A stretch of DNA of 64,000 nucleotides, from IMG/VR virus record IMGVR_UViG_3300033553_000116, positions 1 through 64,000 of that record; one strand, 5' to 3'. The position numbers and the translations under genes are program-made. Origin of the DNA: a virus. This document shows positions 29,086 to 63,664 of the stretch, piece after piece. Position 1 is the first letter of the stretch, and each line of letters starts with the position of its first letter. The notes beneath the pieces are model-generated. The model was not told where the DNA came from. It worked only from the letters and a program-made list of their open reading frames with translations, and ran no database searches.

Positions 29086-29607
29086 ATGAGTAATGATAAA
29101 ACATCTGAGCTAGCAGAACAAGCAGTCATTGAAGGATTCGATGTAGACCGCGACGTTACAATCACAGATGTACCTGAAGAAGTAGTTGTTGAAGTTACCG
29201 CCGCTTCCGTCTTTAGTGAAATTGAAGCTGGTGGTAACACTGGTTGGGATGACCTAATGCGCATCTATTATGAAACTCAGGCCATCTCAACTGTACCGGG
29301 TGCAGTCTTGCCATTACTAAAAGACCCTAAGGCGTTGGCGCAGGTTGAAGACGTTGCATTATTAGAAAGACTATCTACAGCGTTAGTGCGATCCGTAAAT
29401 TATTATAGAGACACACAACAAGCTATCTTTGCCAAACACTCAACACGCACTGGCCCAAACACTGACCCAGATGACTTGATGCGATGTCTTGCTATTGCTG
29501 AAGAGTATAACATTTGGATGGCAGGTTACCAGGGTGAAATGAATGTACTAGTCGCAAATGTCCTAGAGATGTTTAATCCGACTTCTACTACAGTTACCCC
29601 TAAGTAA
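29086..29607 (+). CDS. Unknown protein, 173 aa
   Basis: ATG follows AAAAGGATACTACC. An acidic N-terminal 45 residues is followed by a helical region ending in a Thr-rich tail. No family recognised. It is the first gene of the long plus-strand block and sits 26 bases before the frameshifting tail-type gene. Confidence 0.75.
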   Translation: MSNDKTSELAEQAVIEGFDVDRDVTITDVPEEVVVEVTAASVFSEIEAGGNTGWDDLMRIYYETQAISTVPGAVLPLLKDPKALAQVEDVALLERLSTALVRSVNYYRDTQQAIFAKHSTRTGPNTDPDDLMRCLAIAEEYNIWMAGYQGEMNVLVANVLEMFNPTSTTVTPK

Positions 29608-29633
29608 AACGAAATAACAAAAGGATCAGTATT

Positions 29634-31127
29634 ATGTCAGAAGAACAGACAATACCAGAAACTGAGAACAACCCAGATCTGAAGGATACATCAGATCAGC
29701 CCGAGCAAGGGTATGGTAAGGTTACAATGGATCAAGATCCAGTAACTGTAACTAAAGATGTTAAGCTTACTGCAGACGATATTAAAGAGCACATTTTATC
29801 TTTCCTTAACTTAGACGTTGCCGGACTTGATAAGATTGCAGAAGACTGGCCTGCTGTTGATGCCAATGCTACTGACAATGATGCTAGAGTTTGGATGGCT
29901 TCATACATTGAAGGTATTGGTAATCTACTCAAATCAAATTCATTAAGTTCATCAGTTGAGCGTGAGGGTGCTAACTGGCGACAAAAGGTTGAGCATGAAG
30001 GCGAGAAGCTTGGTGCATCACGCCCTAGATTCGGTGAAAGCACTAGCGGTAAGATTAGTGGTGAACGTGCCCTAATGAAAGCATCTGATGTTTTAGGTCT
30101 AGGTTCAACTGTTGTAATTCCATTATGGCATAGTGGTATCTGGGTAACTATTAAAGCACCTAGTGAATCAGCACTACTTGAACTTGAGCGTAGAATTGCT
30201 AGTGAGAAGATTGACTTAGGTAGACATACAAGCGGGATGATCTTTTCTAACAGCACAATCTATACAACTAGTTATGCGGTGAACTTTGTACTGAATCACA
30301 TTTATGATGCCAGTGTTAAGAACCTTAGTCAGAGCTATTTAAAGTCTGTTATTAAAGTTGACGACATTCCACTGCTTCTATGGGGTATGGCTAGTGCAAT
30401 CTATCCTTCAGGGTATGATTATGCTAGACCGTGTACTACTAACCCTGGTGAATGTACTCACACTGTTACCGGTAAGCTATCTCTTCCAAAACTATTCTGG
30501 ACAGATAACGAAGCATTGAGTCATTGGCAACGTAAGCATATGTCTGACCGTAGTGCTAAGTGGGATGATGCAGCTCTTGAAAAATATCAGAACGAACATA
30601 TCCGTGGTGGTGACTTTACTTTAGAGTTACATTCTGAACTGAGTGTTACACTTGCGGTCCCTACTATTCAGCAATATGAAACAGCTGGGTTTGGTTGGGT
30701 TGATAATATTGTTAAACTACTTGAAGGTTCTTTAGGTGTATCTCTAACTGGTAGAGAGCGCGATGAATACATTATTGATCAAGGTAAACTAACTACCTTA
30801 CGTCAGTATGCTCATTGGGTTAAAAGCTTTACCTTAGGTGATTCAATCGTTGAAGACTTTGATACAATCGAAGGTCTTTTAGACAACCTATCAGCTAGCG
30901 AAGAAATTAGTGATAAATTCTTTAATGGTGTCGGTGCATACATTGATAAGAGTGTAATCTCTGTAATCGCAATTCCTAAGTATGACTGCCCAGCATGTGG
31001 TACACCTCAGGAAGGAGATGTTAATCAGGAGTTCCATCCTCATCTATTACCTTTGGATGTGGTGAGAATTTTTTTTACCCTTCTCGACCATCGGATATTC
31101 AAGGCGTTAACAGCGCGCAAGATGTAG
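29634..31127 (+). CDS. Tail or baseplate-type protein, zero-frame product (497 aa) of a -1 frameshift pair
   Basis: ATG follows AAAAGGATCAGTATT. An acidic disordered N-terminus of about 55 residues is followed by a mixed alpha/beta region. Near the C-terminus is a CPACG zinc-knuckle half and HPHLLPLDVVRIFF. Codons 480-481 form T_TTT_TTT at 31070-31076. In zero frame only 16 residues follow before a stop, whereas the -1 frame stays open for 161 codons. The zero-frame tail (TLLDHRIFKALTARKM) looks like an out-of-frame artefact. A gene with a paired-cysteine motif just before frameshift recalls baseplate-hub type proteins, but that identity is a guess. Confidence 0.75.
   Translation: MSEEQTIPETENNPDLKDTSDQPEQGYGKVTMDQDPVTVTKDVKLTADDIKEHILSFLNLDVAGLDKIAEDWPAVDANATDNDARVWMASYIEGIGNLLKSNSLSSSVEREGANWRQKVEHEGEKLGASRPRFGESTSGKISGERALMKASDVLGLGSTVVIPLWHSGIWVTIKAPSESALLELERRIASEKIDLGRHTSGMIFSNSTIYTTSYAVNFVLNHIYDASVKNLSQSYLKSVIKVDDIPLLLWGMASAIYPSGYDYARPCTTNPGECTHTVTGKLSLPKLFWTDNEALSHWQRKHMSDRSAKWDDAALEKYQNEHIRGGDFTLELHSELSVTLAVPTIQQYETAGFGWVDNIVKLLEGSLGVSLTGRERDEYIIDQGKLTTLRQYAHWVKSFTLGDSIVEDFDTIEGLLDNLSASEEISDKFFNGVGAYIDKSVISVIAIPKYDCPACGTPQEGDVNQEFHPHLLPLDVVRIFFTLLDHRIFKALTARKM
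31070..31076 (+). other. -1 frameshift slippery heptamer T_TTT_TTT
   Basis: In the zero frame the codons read ATT TTT TTT ACC. Both Phe codons can re-pair one base upstream, giving TAC CCT in the -1 frame. The tract is eight T's long (31069-31076). It sits at the only point where both frames overlap before the zero-frame stop. A sequencing or assembly indel in the homopolymer is the alternative. Confidence 0.6.
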
Positions 31128-31561
31128 AGCTAGATCAGGAAGATCCAAACGGACATGTCTTATATCGGCAGTTTGGTTTGGTTAAATCTGAAGGCCCTAC
31201 AGAAGTGGACAAGATCCTCACTGAAGTAAAGAACGTAGATAGCATCTCAGCTCAACTCCTTTTAAGAGAAGCATATGAGATGACCTACGGGCTTATAGAT
31301 GAAGCTGAGGAAAATCCACACCCATGGGAATTAGTCTCCACCACCCCCAAGGAGGAGATTAATAAATATGGTCCGCTGTATAGAACATTGAGAGCGTATA
31401 GACTCAACAATGTTAATGATAAGTTTGGATACTCCTTTACTGAATTCCTTGCATTGCCAAGGAATCTAGTGGATGAGATCTTTACTATCTGTGAAGAAGA
31501 AGCTGTGGTTGAGGCAAAGGCTGTGGCTAGTGTCAGTAAAGATCTGTCGTCTAGTAAATAG
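31076..31561 (+). CDS. -1 frame extension of the tail-type gene (161 aa after the slip)
   Basis: The -1 frame runs without stop from TAC at 31076 (YPSRPSDIQGVNSAQDVELD) to TAA at 31559. A separate start is unlikely: the first candidate, TTG at 31178, has no ribosome site, and the first ATG lies deep inside the coherent protein. The sequence is acidic and helical. The fusion product would be about 642 residues, with the zero-frame product as a shorter form. This arrangement resembles tail-assembly proteins that use a fixed ratio of short and long forms. Confidence 0.7.
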   Translation, partial: YPSRPSDIQGVNSAQDVELDQEDPNGHVLYRQFGLVKSEGPTEVDKILTEVKNVDSISAQLLLREAYEMTYGLIDEAEENPHPWELVSTTPKEEINKYGPLYRTLRAYRLNNVNDKFGYSFTEFLALPRNLVDEIFTICEEEAVVEAKAVASVSKDLSSSK

Positions 31562-34620: not shown

Positions 34621-34670
34621 AAGAGCACCCCCTTTCGGGAGTGCTCTTATGCTTATCTTTTTTTTTTTTT
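34621..34670. terminator. Strong terminator between convergent genes
   Basis: AGAGCACCCCC / GGGAGTGCTCT stem with TTTC loop and, after a short spacer, a run of twelve or more T's. It ends the plus row and lies against the 3' end of the 968-aa minus gene. Confidence 0.85.
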
Positions 34671-37575
34671 AGTTTTCGTGTCTAATAAACAACACTTCAA
34701 CATCATCAACTACTTTATAAGTACCGTCCAAATCAATACTCAACTTCTTACGAATTGAACATCTATCTGTTTTATCAATGATACTGATAGTAGCGAAGTC
34801 ATGTACACCACCAAGACCTTTTAAATCTATTGCTATTACATCGTCTCCAGCGGATGCTGTTAACTTAGATATAATCTCATTAGTTTTAATCCTAGTCTTA
34901 GAAAGTTCACTTGACAATACATCAATAGCCAAATGCTTTAAGCTATCACGTAAGAACACATCATCAAACTTCTCTCTATTCAAATAAAACGAAACAGTAA
35001 ATGCTTGCTCTAAGTTAAGAGTTGTTTCTTCACCGTCCAATACCAAGAACTTAGAGTTACCGAATGTTCTCTGAGGATACAGTAACATTTCAGTTTGCTC
35101 GATTAGCCATTCTCTAAATTCAGCAACATCGTTCTCTAACCAACTTACAATAGACTTAGGTAACTCTTTCAAGTAATCCAAATCCTTAGGGAACGTACTG
35201 AATAGATATCTACCATCAATTAAGAACATGTCCAACTCACGCAAGACACTTCTCACATTATCAATAATTGGCTTACCGTTAATATCTAATACCGGATCTC
35301 CAATTTTGTGTTTGATTGCATGATATCCATTCTCATCCAAAATAGGATCACCCTTTGTAAATAAGAGTGTAGTAGTTAAATCGCCTGTTACCGGATCTCT
35401 AGTTAATACCACAGCCCCAGTATTAGCATCACGTACATAGATGTTCTTATCGTAATAACTATAGACAGTCGTCTCATACACTTGATATATATTAGATTCA
35501 AGAACTGACCTAGATCTATTCCAGAATCCATCTAGGTGTGTACCAAATTTAATACCTATACGTTCATGCACTACACCTCTATCATAATCAGAAACCAAAT
35601 ATGACAAAGGTCTATAATTAAGTGATGGTAGTTCATTACCAATTTCTCTAATATAGTAGACTAAGTCAAAGACCATATTTAAAGGAACATTATAGTTAAG
35701 TATATCGTTAGAGTACATTTTGAAACCATTAAGTATCAAATTATGATCCTTGTCAATATCAAAGTTTGTACTTAAGTCAAACTCATAGATTCTCTCACCG
35801 TCACCCTTAGTGGCTAAAAGAGTACCTTCTAAAAATGCCTCAGACCTTTGGTCAGTTGGAGTAAAGCTTAATAAAGGCATTACACGATAATCAGGTAACT
35901 CTTTAATAACAGTATCTGACTTAGTAGTTATCTGTAACACATACCCAGTTTCCTTTTTACGGATACTGAATGTATCTGTACTAATATAAATACCTAAATC
36001 AATATTCTCTTCAACAAACTCTTTATGACGTTCACTAGGATCATCCAAGTAATATGCGCGAGTCTCAAAGAACTTATCACCGGCATCCAATACATAGTGA
36101 AATGGAGTAAACAGATAATTGGAGTCATTGATAATATCAACATACTCTATACCTGTTAAGCTTTCGAGGGCAAGACGTTCACCATTAGGAACTAGCTTTA
36201 AAATACCATTCTCTAATTTAAATAACGTATTAGGGGAAATCGTTATTCCTGCACCGTTATCGTAAACCCCTAGCCTATCTACTAATTCACCGTAACTTGT
36301 CTGTAGTGTCCCTATGACGGAGCTTGCAGCGCTAGATGTATTAGTGTTTGCTGGCACTGGTAACTTTCTACTAGCTAAGTAGACACGATTGGTTACATTA
36401 TCAATATCTTTAATAGATTCATATCCACGATTAGCTAATCTAGTTGAGAGTTGTACATCTGTAATAGGTATCTGAGAATCACCTAATGCATTATTTAAAA
36501 CACGTTCTCTAAGCTCACCAAAAGGAATAGCAACAACACCGCCATTAACAGCAGCATCTGAAAATACAGCCATATTACTAAACGAGTTAAGGGGTGTAGC
36601 AAATGCATCAGTCTCATCGCCCAAGTCTCTATCAATCCATCTAGCAGTGAACGCATTGATTTGATAACTGTCAAGAAGTAGGTCTAACTTACCTTTGGTG
36701 GTATAGATATCCATACGGACAGTCCCTGTAATAAGACCTGCATCTAAGTATACTTGAGGGATACTTATCTTAATACGATTATCATAAACCTTTAATACTG
36801 CAGTCACTACAGTTGGATCAAATACCTGATCAGTATGAGTAGTCTTAATCTCAGACCATTGATCAAGTCCCAAAGATCTATAAACACGGCAGTAATAAAA
36901 ATCATCTTCGAAGGGATATGTTTCTTCAAACGCTACCGCTTTAGATATCTGATTGTATTTAGACTTTATAATAAACTGACTAACTGGAACCTTGATTCGA
37001 ATATAGTCTTCACCTTCAATGTTTACAGTATCCCATTCAGCAATATTATCTTTTAGGACTTCCAATGGAGATGGGTCACTTCCATCATAAACAACTTGTA
37101 TTCCACCATAGTCCATAACACGCATCTCAACAGGATACTGCATTGTGAATACATAATCAGCAATCTTAAATTCTGTATGTTTTGGGATAACTAATTTATT
37201 TATACCTAGGGTACCTGATGGAATTGCCTTAGCGGTAACTTCAGCTTTATTAAATAGCATTGTGAAAGTAGTTCTACTAGGAGATGCAAATCTACCTATG
37301 TAATCTTTATCAGACATATGCATGTAAAGCTCATCTTCTGTGACGGCCATAGATGGATACTGCATTCTAGTCTGTGCTTCAAAGTGAACCATAGCAGCAG
37401 ATGTATTAACTGCACTTGATTCCATTAGGAAAACAAAAGGGTTAGATGGATCTACTACATCTATTGTTCCAGCTGATACAGACTCTAAAGTCTCTAATGC
37501 CAAACGCTGTATAGCAGCCGAGTTGTATCTAACGGTTTGGATTGATTCTTTTAATCTAGAAATTGGTGTATTCAT
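34669..37575 (-). CDS. Large baseplate-wedge-like virion protein, 968 aa
   Basis: The N-terminal 200 residues contain a stretch typical of phage baseplate wedge/J-type proteins: MQYPSMAVTEDELYMHMSD, then IGRFASPSRTTFTMLF, and IPKHTEFKIADYVFTM. Alternating beta-rich domains follow along the whole length. No enzyme motif or membrane segment. These features fit a baseplate component linking tail tube and fibres, but the exact T4 counterpart (gp6/gp7-like) cannot be fixed by eye. It overlaps the downstream end of the 379-aa gene by four bases (ATGA-type), so they are coupled. Confidence 0.7.
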   Translation of the reverse strand: MNTPISRLKESIQTVRYNSAAIQRLALETLESVSAGTIDVVDPSNPFVFLMESSAVNTSAAMVHFEAQTRMQYPSMAVTEDELYMHMSDKDYIGRFASPSRTTFTMLFNKAEVTAKAIPSGTLGINKLVIPKHTEFKIADYVFTMQYPVEMRVMDYGGIQVVYDGSDPSPLEVLKDNIAEWDTVNIEGEDYIRIKVPVSQFIIKSKYNQISKAVAFEETYPFEDDFYYCRVYRSLGLDQWSEIKTTHTDQVFDPTVVTAVLKVYDNRIKISIPQVYLDAGLITGTVRMDIYTTKGKLDLLLDSYQINAFTARWIDRDLGDETDAFATPLNSFSNMAVFSDAAVNGGVVAIPFGELRERVLNNALGDSQIPITDVQLSTRLANRGYESIKDIDNVTNRVYLASRKLPVPANTNTSSAASSVIGTLQTSYGELVDRLGVYDNGAGITISPNTLFKLENGILKLVPNGERLALESLTGIEYVDIINDSNYLFTPFHYVLDAGDKFFETRAYYLDDPSERHKEFVEENIDLGIYISTDTFSIRKKETGYVLQITTKSDTVIKELPDYRVMPLLSFTPTDQRSEAFLEGTLLATKGDGERIYEFDLSTNFDIDKDHNLILNGFKMYSNDILNYNVPLNMVFDLVYYIREIGNELPSLNYRPLSYLVSDYDRGVVHERIGIKFGTHLDGFWNRSRSVLESNIYQVYETTVYSYYDKNIYVRDANTGAVVLTRDPVTGDLTTTLLFTKGDPILDENGYHAIKHKIGDPVLDINGKPIIDNVRSVLRELDMFLIDGRYLFSTFPKDLDYLKELPKSIVSWLENDVAEFREWLIEQTEMLLYPQRTFGNSKFLVLDGEETTLNLEQAFTVSFYLNREKFDDVFLRDSLKHLAIDVLSSELSKTRIKTNEIISKLTASAGDDVIAIDLKGLGGVHDFATISIIDKTDRCSIRKKLSIDLDGTYKVVDDVEVLFIRHEN

Positions 37576-38711
37576 TTAGAAATAATCCCTTTTAATAATA
37601 ATTCGTTTATTGCATTAGTGTAGTCATCATAACTAGCATACCACTCCAACTCCATTGTCTTAGGCTCTATCCTTGGATGAAGTTTATGTCCTAAGTACTT
37701 ACTTAGTGTGCTACCTATCATTCCATAAATAGGATATTCCTTTCTAGCACTAATCTTAAACATGAAGTCGCGGATTCCATCGCTCATTTCTGGGTTCTTA
37801 CCTTCAACAGTTAAGTTAAACTCTTTAACTAAAATTGGATCTAGGTAATTGACACCGATACATCTAAAAGGAATACTAATCTGATCATTATCTGAATTGA
37901 ATTCCGATTCAGCAGAATAGTTAAAGGACGCCCCTAATGGAGATGCCATAGGAAACGATGCACCACACGCTGCAATCTTCTGTACGTAAGTATTTGTTTC
38001 ATCCATTACTAGTCTATAAATACGAGACATGTAATCAATCTCATTATTTAAAATTAGATCTGGATAAGGTACCATTGTGCCGTCATAGACCATCGAAGAG
38101 TAGACTACCCATATAGTAAAAAGTAATGTTATAGGATCACCTTGTATGTTTTGGAAGTTGGCGGTGATATCAAACGTGTTATATAGGTGGCTTGTGCCGT
38201 CTACCATACTGTAAGATTCCTTATAAACACCCTCTTTTGAGGTGTAGGTATCTACTGCGATATCAGGCCAACCCGACATACTAATTAAGTTATTAGTTAA
38301 GACAGGTATGAAAGCCTGACTTTGTTCAAAGATAGCAGATTTGACAGGAGCTGGACCGTAGCGTTCACTTCTCGGATCTAGCATACATCTTAGAGCTCTA
38401 GCCATACTACTATCATCATCAGATAATAAAGGAGATAACATTCTAACAGCTGCTATATTTTCATCTGTTAAGTTCAGGTCAGGTCTAGTAAAAAAGGTAT
38501 AACCGTGTGCATCTTTATTCTTAGGTGCTGCAGTACCAGTTTTGTGTGTATTAATACCACGTAAGTTATCTGTCTGGGCAGTAGTTAATCCGCCATAGCC
38601 GCCAATCTTAGAAATGAAGTCCACTTCGAGTTTTGCATCGCCTCTACCTAGGGGTTTATCATCTCTACCTAGTAGGTTATCTTCTATACTTAGTAAGTCG
38701 TCGTTACTCAT
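37572..38711 (-). CDS. Virion structural protein, 379 aa
   Basis: ATG at 38711 follows AATTCCTTGGGGATAAA. It contains the segment GYTFFTRPDLNLTDEN (about residues 70-85), which I associate with large-phage tail/baseplate proteins, followed by mixed alpha/beta sequence ending in short helices. Acidic N-terminus (SIEDNLLGRDD). It is upstream of, and coupled to, the 968-aa baseplate-like gene, so both probably build the same structure. Exact role unknown. Confidence 0.7.
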   Translation of the reverse strand: MSNDDLLSIEDNLLGRDDKPLGRGDAKLEVDFISKIGGYGGLTTAQTDNLRGINTHKTGTAAPKNKDAHGYTFFTRPDLNLTDENIAAVRMLSPLLSDDDSSMARALRCMLDPRSERYGPAPVKSAIFEQSQAFIPVLTNNLISMSGWPDIAVDTYTSKEGVYKESYSMVDGTSHLYNTFDITANFQNIQGDPITLLFTIWVVYSSMVYDGTMVPYPDLILNNEIDYMSRIYRLVMDETNTYVQKIAACGASFPMASPLGASFNYSAESEFNSDNDQISIPFRCIGVNYLDPILVKEFNLTVEGKNPEMSDGIRDFMFKISARKEYPIYGMIGSTLSKYLGHKLHPRIEPKTMELEWYASYDDYTNAINELLLKGIISK

Positions 38712-53663: not shown

Positions 53664-54497
53664 ATGCGACAGTATTTAGAAGGACTACAACGTATCTTAG
53701 ATGAAGGTACGTTTCATGGAGATAGAACAGGCACAGGTACTATCTCTCGTTTCGGGGAGCAGTTACGTTTTGATTTGACAGATGGTCTCCCATTGGTCAC
53801 TACTAAGTTCACAAACTTCCGTGCCATTCAGCGTGAACTACTTTGGTTCCTTGAAGGCTCTACTAATAGCATCCGGTTAAATGAAATCGGTTCTAAGATC
53901 TGGGATGGCTGGGCTTTAGATGATGGTGACTTAGGGCCTATCTATGGTAAGCAATGGACTGACTGGGATGTCATCGACAAAGGTGAGGTAGTAACTGATC
54001 TGGAGGCTCTTTTAGAACTTTCTCAAGATGGTACTAGATTAGATGAACTTAGTCTTAATATCAGTTCTATTTTAGATAAGATTGCACTTAAGCCAAATAT
54101 CAATCAGATCCAACAGGTCATTGAAGACTTGCGTGTGAATCCACATTCAAGACGTCATTTAGTTACTGCATGGAACCCATCTGCATTGCCATCTGAATAT
54201 AAACTAACCATGACTAACGGTAAAGTTATTAAAGCTCCACTTACACCACAGGGTAACGTTGCAGAAGGTAAAGCTGCATTGCCTGCATGTCATACCTTCT
54301 TCCAGTTCTACTCTCGACTAATGTGTCTTGAAGAGCGTATGAATTATATCCCGGCTTCTAAAGTAGGGTTATATGCAAAGATCGTGGAATTCGATGAAGT
54401 ATCAGCTCAGCCATTCTTAGATGACACTGAGGCCATGGCTTTATTAGATGAGCATGATGTTCCTAAACATGCACTAAGTTGTCAGATGTATCAGCGT
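53664..54497 (+). CDS. td: Thymidylate synthase, exon 1 (residues 1-278)
   Basis: ATG follows AACAAGGATTAAT. It converts dUMP to dTMP using methylene-tetrahydrofolate. Signatures include DRTGTGTISRFGEQLRFDL near the N-terminus, the catalytic ALPACHTFFQF with the active-site Cys, and LSCQMYQRS at the end. The spliced protein is about 376 residues, longer than the usual 264-316, with inserted stretches between the conserved blocks (around residues 115-150, 185-205 and 220-265). The frame reads on into the intron to a stop at 54569, a readthrough artefact. Exon 1 ends in T at the likely 5' splice site. Confidence 0.93.
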
Positions 54498-54829
54498 TCA
54501 CATAACGAGCGCCTTTTAGCAGTAATGCTAATCGAAGAACATTCTCAAATTGCTGGGAAATCTTGCTAAGCATTTACACCACAACGTAATTTGAAAAAAA
54601 TAAGCGTGACGGTTTTAAAAAGTTAAATGATAGAGATAATCAGCAGCCAAGGGTCCATATAGGATCAAGGTTCAACGACTAGCCTTTGATAAGGTGTAGG
54701 ACCAAGTGGTCCGAAACGGGAAAGCTTCCTACTCATAGAGAGGAAGGTGATATAGTCTACTCTGCATGGTGACATGCAGCTGCACGTAATGGTGCGGGTA
54801 GTGTCTAACGAACACTATTGAATATAACG
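54498..54829 (+). ncRNA. Group I self-splicing intron in the thymidylate synthase gene
   Basis: The coding frame breaks exactly in the QRS-x-D-x-x-LG-x-PFNIA block. The intervening 332 bases hold group I core elements: GGTTCAACGACTAG (P3/P7 'R' region) and GATATAGTCTACTC ('S' region), in correct order and spacing. The predicted 5' exon ends in T and the intron in G, as group I rules require. No homing endonuclease frame is present. Splicing restores QRS-S-DSLLGQPFNIA. T4 td contains a group I intron at a different location in the gene. Confidence 0.9.
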
Positions 54830-55126
54830 TCGAGTGATTCATTATTGGGCCAGCCCTTTAATATCGCTTCATATGCGCTACTAACTGAAATGGTTGCACA
54901 GTGTGTTAACATGGTTCCAGATGAACTTATCTGGGTAGGTGGCGATTGTCACATTTACAATAACCATCTTGATGCTGCTAAAGAGGTAATAGCCAGACAG
55001 CCTATGGCATTACCTACACTTAAGTTAACTCCAGGCATTACTGATATCTTTGCTTTTGGTGAAGATGACATTGTGTTGGAGTCATATGAACACCACGATG
55101 CTATTAAATTAAAAGTATCGATTTAA
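54830..55126 (+). CDS. td: Thymidylate synthase, exon 2 (C-terminal 98 residues)
   Basis: From TCG AGT GAT TCA at 54830: the segment GQPFNIASYALLTEMVAQ and the substrate-binding GGDCHIYNNH, both standard for thymidylate synthase, through to a TAA at 55124. The TTG at 54818 just before it belongs to the intron and does not need to be a start. Exons 1 and 2 are each multiples of three bases, so the join keeps frame. Confidence 0.92.
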   Translation, partial: SSDSLLGQPFNIASYALLTEMVAQCVNMVPDELIWVGGDCHIYNNHLDAAKEVIARQPMALPTLKLTPGITDIFAFGEDDIVLESYEHHDAIKLKVSI

Positions 55127-61940: not shown

Positions 61941-62015
61941 TCCGAAGTAGCTCAGTGGTAGAGCAGAAGCCTGTTAAGCTTTTGGCCGTTGGTTCGACCC
62001 CAACCTTCGGAGCCA
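61941..62015 (+). tRNA. tRNA-Asn (GTT)
   Basis: Complete cloverleaf: acceptor TCCGAAG / CTTCGGA, D-arm GCTC / GAGC, anticodon loop CTGTTAA with anticodon GTT, T-loop TTCGACC with an intact T-stem, and encoded CCA at 62013-62015. A functional phage tRNA that would supply Asn decoding. Confidence 0.93.
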
Positions 62016-62022
62016 CACAACG

Positions 62023-62096
62023 TCGGACATAGCTCAGTTGGGAGAGCGGCACCTTTGCGGGTGTGATTGTCGCAGGTTCAATCCCTGCTGTCTGAC
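62023..62096 (+). tRNA. tRNA-like element, abnormal anticodon arm
   Basis: Acceptor TCGGACA / TGTCTGA, D-arm GCTC / GAGC and T-arm GCAGG / CCTGC are regular, but the anticodon stem (GCACC with GGTGT) encloses only six bases (TTTGCG). TGC (Ala) is the likeliest anticodon, but the arm is irregular. The discriminator C and the missing CCA also depart from the norm. It may be a decayed tRNA, or one needing post-transcriptional repair. Confidence 0.6.
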
Positions 62097-62101
62097 ACTT
62101 C

Positions 62102-62932: not shown

Positions 62933-63664
62933 ATGAGTTCTAAATTGACATTAAAGAAATATACTATCGACCCTATAGCCCAAGAAGAAGTTGCTTCTTT
63001 AGAGGATATGGAGAATGCTAGATGTACTACCCAGCATTCCTTGTTTGTTACAGAAGTGGAAGGTGTTCAACACTTCAAACTACATCTAGAGGACATCATG
63101 CCTGAGAAAGCGGCATTCCATGTGATACTTAATAGATTATCTCAAGCACAACAGGGTGATACGTTGGAATTACGTATACATAGCAATGGCGGCAGTACTG
63201 ATATTGGTCAGATTATTATTAACATGATTAATAATGTATTTCCTGGTCGAGCTACTGCAGTCTTGGATAACATGGGTAAATCAATGGGTGCTATTATTTT
63301 CTGTAATTGTCCTAAACGTATTGTGAATGTAAATTCAGACATCATGTTCCATTGGTATAGTGTAGGAGTTAGTGGTAAAGGAAATGAAGTCACTAGTAGC
63401 ATTGATCGAGCAAACGAAGCACTTAGGGATTTATACCAACGTTCAATGGTTGATACGGGTTTTCTAACACAGGAAGAAGTCGATAGATTGTACGATGGTA
63501 AGGATTACCCATTCGGCACAGTAGAGATGTGTCAACGTGGCATTGCTACACATGTACTAGTCAGAGGTATTGAAATCCCTGCAGTACAATACTTAGGATA
63601 CAAGTCTGAATCATTAACAGATGATGACATGGTTATATCCTATCACAGTGAAAGAAATATTTAA
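62933..63664 (+). CDS. ClpP-like serine protease (possibly prohead maturation protease)
   Basis: 243 aa; ATG follows TTAATGGAAGTGAT. Characteristic S14/ClpP residues: HSNGGSTDIG around residue 84, MGKSMGA with nucleophile Ser117, MFHWY with His140, and a DYPFG segment with Asp191 as the likely third catalytic residue. The spacing Ser-His (23 residues) is close to ClpP (25). The N-terminal 60 residues differ from ClpP. Phages use ClpP-fold enzymes as head maturation proteases, but giant phages usually use another fold (gp175-like), so a regulatory role is possible too. Confidence 0.82.
   Translation: MSSKLTLKKYTIDPIAQEEVASLEDMENARCTTQHSLFVTEVEGVQHFKLHLEDIMPEKAAFHVILNRLSQAQQGDTLELRIHSNGGSTDIGQIIINMINNVFPGRATAVLDNMGKSMGAIIFCNCPKRIVNVNSDIMFHWYSVGVSGKGNEVTSSIDRANEALRDLYQRSMVDTGFLTQEEVDRLYDGKDYPFGTVEMCQRGIATHVLVRGIEIPAVQYLGYKSESLTDDDMVISYHSERNI

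Follow-up and report, generated by a model that had tools for sequence, protein, structure and literature searches.

Tail chaperones produced by frameshifting are well known and have been described in lambda, P2, the Bacillus jumbo phage G (PMC8570332) and Pseudomonas phage Adele (PMC12846349). In the lambda G/GT system, a low-level shift sets the ratio of the two chaperones, as outlined in a review (PMC5009743, citing Xu, Hendrix and Duda 2004). The phage G products gp181 and gp182 are frameshift chaperones of the G-T type which were undetected in virions (PMC8570332), and the tail assembly chaperone (TAC) locus of Adele, found in the Vandenendeviridae/Andersonviridae, carries a GTTTTT motif (PMC12846349). 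Here we describe a probable tail assembly chaperone for the phiKZ-like jumbo phages, in which most virion assembly genes lack an assignment. Two overlapping frames very probably form a single gene, in which a -1 ribosomal slip would yield short and long tail chaperones of the T4 gp26 type. Whereas frameshifted tail chaperones as such are already known, this one is unusual in its size, fold and genome position. The first-pass annotation was not aware of a description of the gene, and in the literature covered, outside which most subscription journals fall, we found no report of it for phiKZ-like phages.

Overlapping frames and their neighbourhood

The window, i.e. the whole stretch of 64,000 nucleotides that was analysed, is part of a 114,246-base IMG/VR virus record. 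Judging from its genes, it is a fragment of a phiKZ-like jumbo phage, with which it matches in the RNA polymerase beta genes, the DNA polymerase, the internal head proteins and the gene order. No relatives of the window at the DNA level were detected in the phage collection. The features of the locus are listed in Table 1. The 497-aa ORF is surrounded by RNA polymerase genes, PHIKZ078/079-type genes and genes of no known function, and its locus is not situated between the tail tube and tape measure genes. The adjacency of the gene pair and its upstream neighbour is conserved among the relatives.

Several other features of the window were recorded. Two large proteins that are conserved in the phiKZ group, with functions not known, are encoded at 34669-37575 (-) (phrog_3248, 1023 bits) and 37572-38711 (-) (phrog_3196), and both are structural candidates. 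A thymidylate synthase gene (53664-55126) is interrupted by a group I intron (RF00028, 54488-54779, 75 bits); the exon parts match PF00303 positions 2-154 and 168-265, and the first part is ∼60 residues longer than the matched profile stretch, which represents an internal protein insertion. Two tRNA genes are located at 61941-62098, one being tRNA-Asn(gtt), while the second, tRNA-like gene has no normal anticodon by ARAGORN ('tg') and scores 44 bits with Rfam. A Clp-protease-like protein (PF00574, E 1.1e-9) is encoded at 62933-63664; in Vibrio phage pir03, a Clp proteolytic subunit is annotated just past the homologous frameshift locus.

Table 1. Coordinates of the two-frame gene and its associated features in the window.
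Feature	Position	Strand	Evidence
Upstream neighbour, PHIKZ078 counterpart by position and order	29086..29607	+	phrog_28433, E 3.5e-6
Shine-Dalgarno-like AGGA of the zero-frame gene, 8 bases ahead of the ATG	29622..29625	+	sequence
Zero-frame ORF, 497 aa, short form, proposed TAC-N	29634..31127	+	phrog_4585, E 8.5e-116
Two nearly invariant Cys pairs, C267/C274 (30432-30455) and C452/C455 (30987-30998)	30432..30998	+	
Slip site T_TTT_TTT in T8 (31069-31076)	31070..31076	+	conserved as N_TTT_TTN, 38/38 loci
-1 extension, 161 aa and stop TAA (31559-31561), proposed TAC-NC C-terminal domain	31076..31561	+	phrog_12109, E 8.6e-30
Short-form zero-frame tail, 16 codons and stop TAG (31125-31127), overlapping the -1 frame	31077..31127	+	
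First possible start in the -1 extension, TTG at residue 35, no Shine-Dalgarno match	31178..31180	+	

At the slip site, the zero frame reads GTG GTG AGA ATT TTT TTT ACC CTT. The first-pass annotation had placed T_TTT_TTT here with a zero-frame stop 16 codons further on, and these coordinates were right. The -1 frame is open over 31025-31561 and, as claimed, adds 161 residues up to its TAA. The fusion comprises 481+161 = 642 aa, with a junction at which LPLDVVRIFF is followed by YPSRPSDIQ. The frames thereby give the two lengths that had been proposed, 497 and about 642 aa, and if expressed, the short and long forms would share their N-terminal part, the C-terminal domain of the -1 frame being present only in the long form. 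The relatives of the zero-frame ORF include PHIKZ077, 201phi2-1 gp136 and PhiPA3 gp074, and those of the extension PHIKZ076.4 and 201phi2-1 gp135.

Slip codons, frame conservation and the probable joining of the frames

The junction was read in 38 loci, consisting of the window, 26 named phages and 11 IMG/VR contigs. The hosts of the named phages were Pseudomonas, Xanthomonas, Burkholderia, Erwinia, Klebsiella, Salmonella, Serratia, Vibrio, Aeromonas, Kosakonia and Cronobacter. Single-protein scans of viral contigs yielded loci with the window, phiKZ, Moabite and SNUABM_37 proteins as queries and none with those of LucasX and SNUABM_54. Most of the 38 loci were 20-40% identical to the window protein. 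A TTT-TTN codon pair was observed at the aligned end of the conserved part of the upstream protein in all 38, with CPxC and ...P(I/L)D....FF stretches leading up to it in most of them. The slip sites were T_TTT_TTT (17 loci), T_TTT_TTC (11), G_TTT_TTT (5) and A_TTT_TTC (2), with A_TTT_TTT, T_TTT_TTG and T_TTT_TTA seen once each. The zero-frame stop lay 8-44 codons past the site, and the -1 ORF measured 151-181 aa in every locus with its domain conserved, matching phrog_12109 in 15/15 members. A +1 shift was also considered and rejected, as the +1 frame mostly closes at once, within about 20 codons past the site.

Elsewhere in the same genes, a TTT-TTN pair turned up just once in 19,931 codons. 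The per-gene TTT fractions for the first of the two Phe codons gave a product of 10^-18.8 (first 34 loci; shared ancestry uncorrected). In FLC8 and DT01 the slip codon is TTT, although the TTC:TTT counts are otherwise 17:0 and 16:1, respectively. Given that many of these genes prefer TTC, TTT at the first slip position appears to be selected. Chance as the origin of the slip-codon conservation is excluded, and the results confirm that the two-frame arrangement with its slip codons is real. The site would be a defined recoding signal under strong constraint. The programmed -1 frameshift put forward by the first-pass annotation, which had called for a comparison of the homopolymer and both frames in related phages, is supported by the recurrence of TTT-TTN and the -1 domain in these diverged loci, the shift itself being what we infer from them.

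Homopolymers are prone to errors, and the two frames could in principle stem from a mistake in sequencing or assembly, or from gene decay. The same two frames were, however, present in the 38 loci with differing T-run lengths, and both are conserved as protein. As the arrangement recurs in loci from separate genomes, an indel or pseudogene was rejected, and its probability is negligible.

In the annotated records examined, the second part appears as a separate hypothetical gene or as no gene, and several tblastn matches had no feature annotated there. The annotated second gene usually begins well inside the conserved domain and leaves a gap, for example in phiKZ, SNUABM_54 and Eowyn. The reading adopted by these annotators, who called separate CDSs, is that the second part is a gene in its own right, initiated independently or through translational coupling, and coupling after the upstream stop is possible. 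Early starts in the -1 ORF do exist in some relatives (residue 9 in 201phi2-1, 19 in Psa21 and 3 in locus L045), but the median position of the first start is residue ∼38, and in roughly one locus in three this start comes only after residue 50. The first ATG/GTG/TTG was found at residue 86 in phiKZ, 69 in Simmy50, 59 in SNUABM_54, 57 in Phabio and 53 in Moabite, and conservation in the second domain often sets in ahead of any start codon. Shine-Dalgarno matches were weak and at no common place, and a separate gene leaves the invariant slip codons and the -1 register in all loci unexplained.

The same was seen in the window. The TTG had been described as the only start and as lacking a Shine-Dalgarno sequence; it is indeed the first and has no such match, but it is not the only one, as a GTG at 31205 with a weak AAGG and an ATG at 31280 follow. 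The TTG sits past the conserved GHV...FG segment, and initiation at any of the three starts would lose the conserved N-terminal portion of this domain. Since conserved residues precede the possible starts and no common ribosome site is present, an independent second gene was rejected as very improbable. The outcomes that would have spoken against the frameshift, namely one continuous frame or a second gene with a convincing ribosome site, were sought, and no relative examined had either. The families phrog_4585 and phrog_12109, both listed without function, would thus be one gene read in two frames, and correcting the annotation would touch many genomes, as 218 phage records match the first part and 90 the second.

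In the proposed mechanism, most ribosomes would produce the 497-aa protein, while a minority would move back by one base at TTT-TTT, the two adjacent Phe codons, and produce the 642-aa fusion. The base before the codon pair is T in 30 loci (T_TTT_TT[TCGA], including the window), as in the canonical heptamer X_XXY_YYZ, and G or A in 8. The latter sites, G_TTT_TTT (5) and A_TTT_TT[TC] (3), permit only a single-tRNA slip on the second codon, whereas the TTG and TTA cases retain the full T_TTT_TTN heptamer. Because G or A precedes the pair in 8 loci, the slip probably takes place as one Phe-tRNA re-pairs from T_TTT or T_TTC to TTT, not as strict tandem slippage.

The frames could also be joined at transcription, if the RNA polymerase slipped in the T run and left some of the mRNAs with one U too many (or two too few). 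The T8 of the window, also present in three other relatives, is in keeping with such slippage; the enzyme concerned would be the phages' own multisubunit RNA polymerase. The T run, however, varies between 5 and 8 and is only 5-6 in 15/38 loci, which is short for slippage, and the conserved feature is the in-frame codon pair TTT-TTN. As codon phase and identity are conserved and not run length, ribosomal shifting is much likelier, and polymerase slippage is regarded as quite improbable. Ribosomal frameshifting, to which the sequence comparison points, would seem to proceed here without a conserved stimulator. No conserved downstream structure was detected (mean fold z +0.19 over 40 nt and -0.23 over 70 nt), and an upstream Shine-Dalgarno element was neither enriched nor better in energy than the background. 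Some frameshifts of tailed phages seem not to involve stimulators (PMC5009743).

Predicted fold and proposed function

Residues 1-481 were modelled with AlphaFold2 from the window sequence aligned with IMG/VR relatives (pLDDT 71, pTM 0.73). Beyond its own family, the Foldseek search of viral models returned proteins named 'Baseplate hub assembly protein, bacteriophage T4-like' and 'Baseplate hub assembly chaperone'. These T4-like matches had E values of 4e-5 to 8e-4, a probability of 1.00 and, for the named matches, a target TM of about 0.5-0.64, with predicted models on both sides of the comparison. In these models the first part matches the fold of the T4 gp26/gp51 family, and this likeness to T4-type baseplate hub assembly proteins supports the earlier description of a tail-type gene. 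A search of the PDB with the first part gave no matching solved structure, and neither part had a significant match in Pfam.

Profile comparison of the first part with T4 gp26 using hhalign gave probabilities of 14-72% by segment, which is weak alone, and 3-47% with a broader gp26 set; the full-length fusion against T4 gp51/gp26 was near zero. In the gp26 profile alignment, the cysteine pairs fell on those of gp26 and the FF end on the gp26 C-terminal EFFELL. The two pairs probably form a zinc site as in T4 gp26, their alignment with gp26 being a weak profile match. The PHROG search returned neither a gp26 family nor phrog_150, and a phrog_150 search of the window's own record gave no match, as was also the case for the controls. 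For the C-terminal domain (model pLDDT 67), the fold search found mainly its own family. Against T4 gp51, a co-linear motif scored 13.9 versus a shuffled-column maximum of 13.3, in a shuffle run with a format error; the resemblance of this domain to the gp51 tail is suggestive only.

Since the predicted fold of the first part matches the gp26/gp51 family, the most likely reading is that the pair supplies a short and a long tail assembly chaperone, in the manner of lambda G/GT. The first part would be an enlarged T4 gp26-type tail assembly chaperone (TAC-N), to which the fusion would add the C-terminal domain (TAC-NC). On the model of lambda gpG/gpGT, coating of the tape measure protein would fall to the short form and recruitment of tail tube subunits to the rare long form. 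The slip rate would thereby set the short:long ratio needed in tail assembly.

The frameshift may alternatively be real and the protein a structural part or a general baseplate hub assembly factor. The traditional annotation of T4 gp26 is that of a baseplate hub subunit, and the fold matches bear 'baseplate hub' names. Production of two forms by a -1 shift near the 3' end is, however, a hallmark of tail assembly chaperones, and the 2022 Virology paper discussed below, by its title, identifies T4-like chaperone genes. The 201phi2-1 record also marks gp138 and gp139 as identified by mass spectrometry and carries no such note for gp136/gp135, which is consistent with a chaperone absent from the virion, an absent note being weak evidence. 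Taken together, a structural role or general hub function is considered unlikely.

Comparison with known frameshift and chaperone systems

With respect to predicted fold, paired cysteines and a '..FF' end soon past CPxC, the phiKZ-type protein resembles T4 gp26/gp51 but is more than twice as long. Both T4 proteins belong to phrog_150, gp51 having the additional C-terminal family phrog_634, so that the T4 pair resembles a short and a long form. The T4 proteins are encoded by separate genes on opposite strands, whereas the two phiKZ-type products would come from a single gene through a -1 shift. Like the phiKZ-type gene, T4 gene 26 does not lie between the tube and tape measure genes. Vladimirov, Gautam and Davidson (2022, Virology) reportedly, by their title, describe T4-like chaperone genes together with a mechanism that differs from frameshifting. 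The present locus suggests that frameshifted chaperones exist for the T4-type fold too.

A tentative extension of this comparison, to which we give slightly less than even weight, is that the T4 gp26-type chaperone was ancestrally a frameshift gene in contractile-tailed phages, nucleus-forming jumbo phages included. The phiKZ group would have retained the shift, in a chaperone that has grown greatly in size and is encoded well away from the tail operon, while in T4 a second gene (51), which carries both parts, would have taken its place. In the Straboviridae, the gp26-type gene of Vibrio phage PVA8 (L054, 1929-2141) ends GAT TTT TTC GTA TAA with a candidate slip site T_TTT_TTC, and in the Ackermannviridae that of Serratia phage 3M (L055, 1863-2066) ends on GTT_TTC. 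In each case the -1 frame continues with a short stretch that resembles the gp51 tail and that carries no annotated gene in 3M, and these gene ends are a hint of ancestral frameshifting.

The lambda slip site is G_GGA_AAG, whereas the slip codons here are TTT-TTN. The first protein of the phiKZ-type pair (480-650 aa) has a T4-type fold and Cys pairs, in contrast to the small gpG-like protein, and its gene, unlike lambda G/GT, is not placed between the tube and tape measure genes. The Adele locus shares a poly-T slip site, a -1 shift and a second part misannotated as a hypothetical gene, but belongs to different families and lies just upstream of the tape measure gene (PMC12846349). Phage G is likewise a jumbo phage with a G-T type arrangement, its gp181/gp182 genes, unlike the phiKZ-type gene, being part of the tail operon and close to the tape measure gene (PMC8570332).
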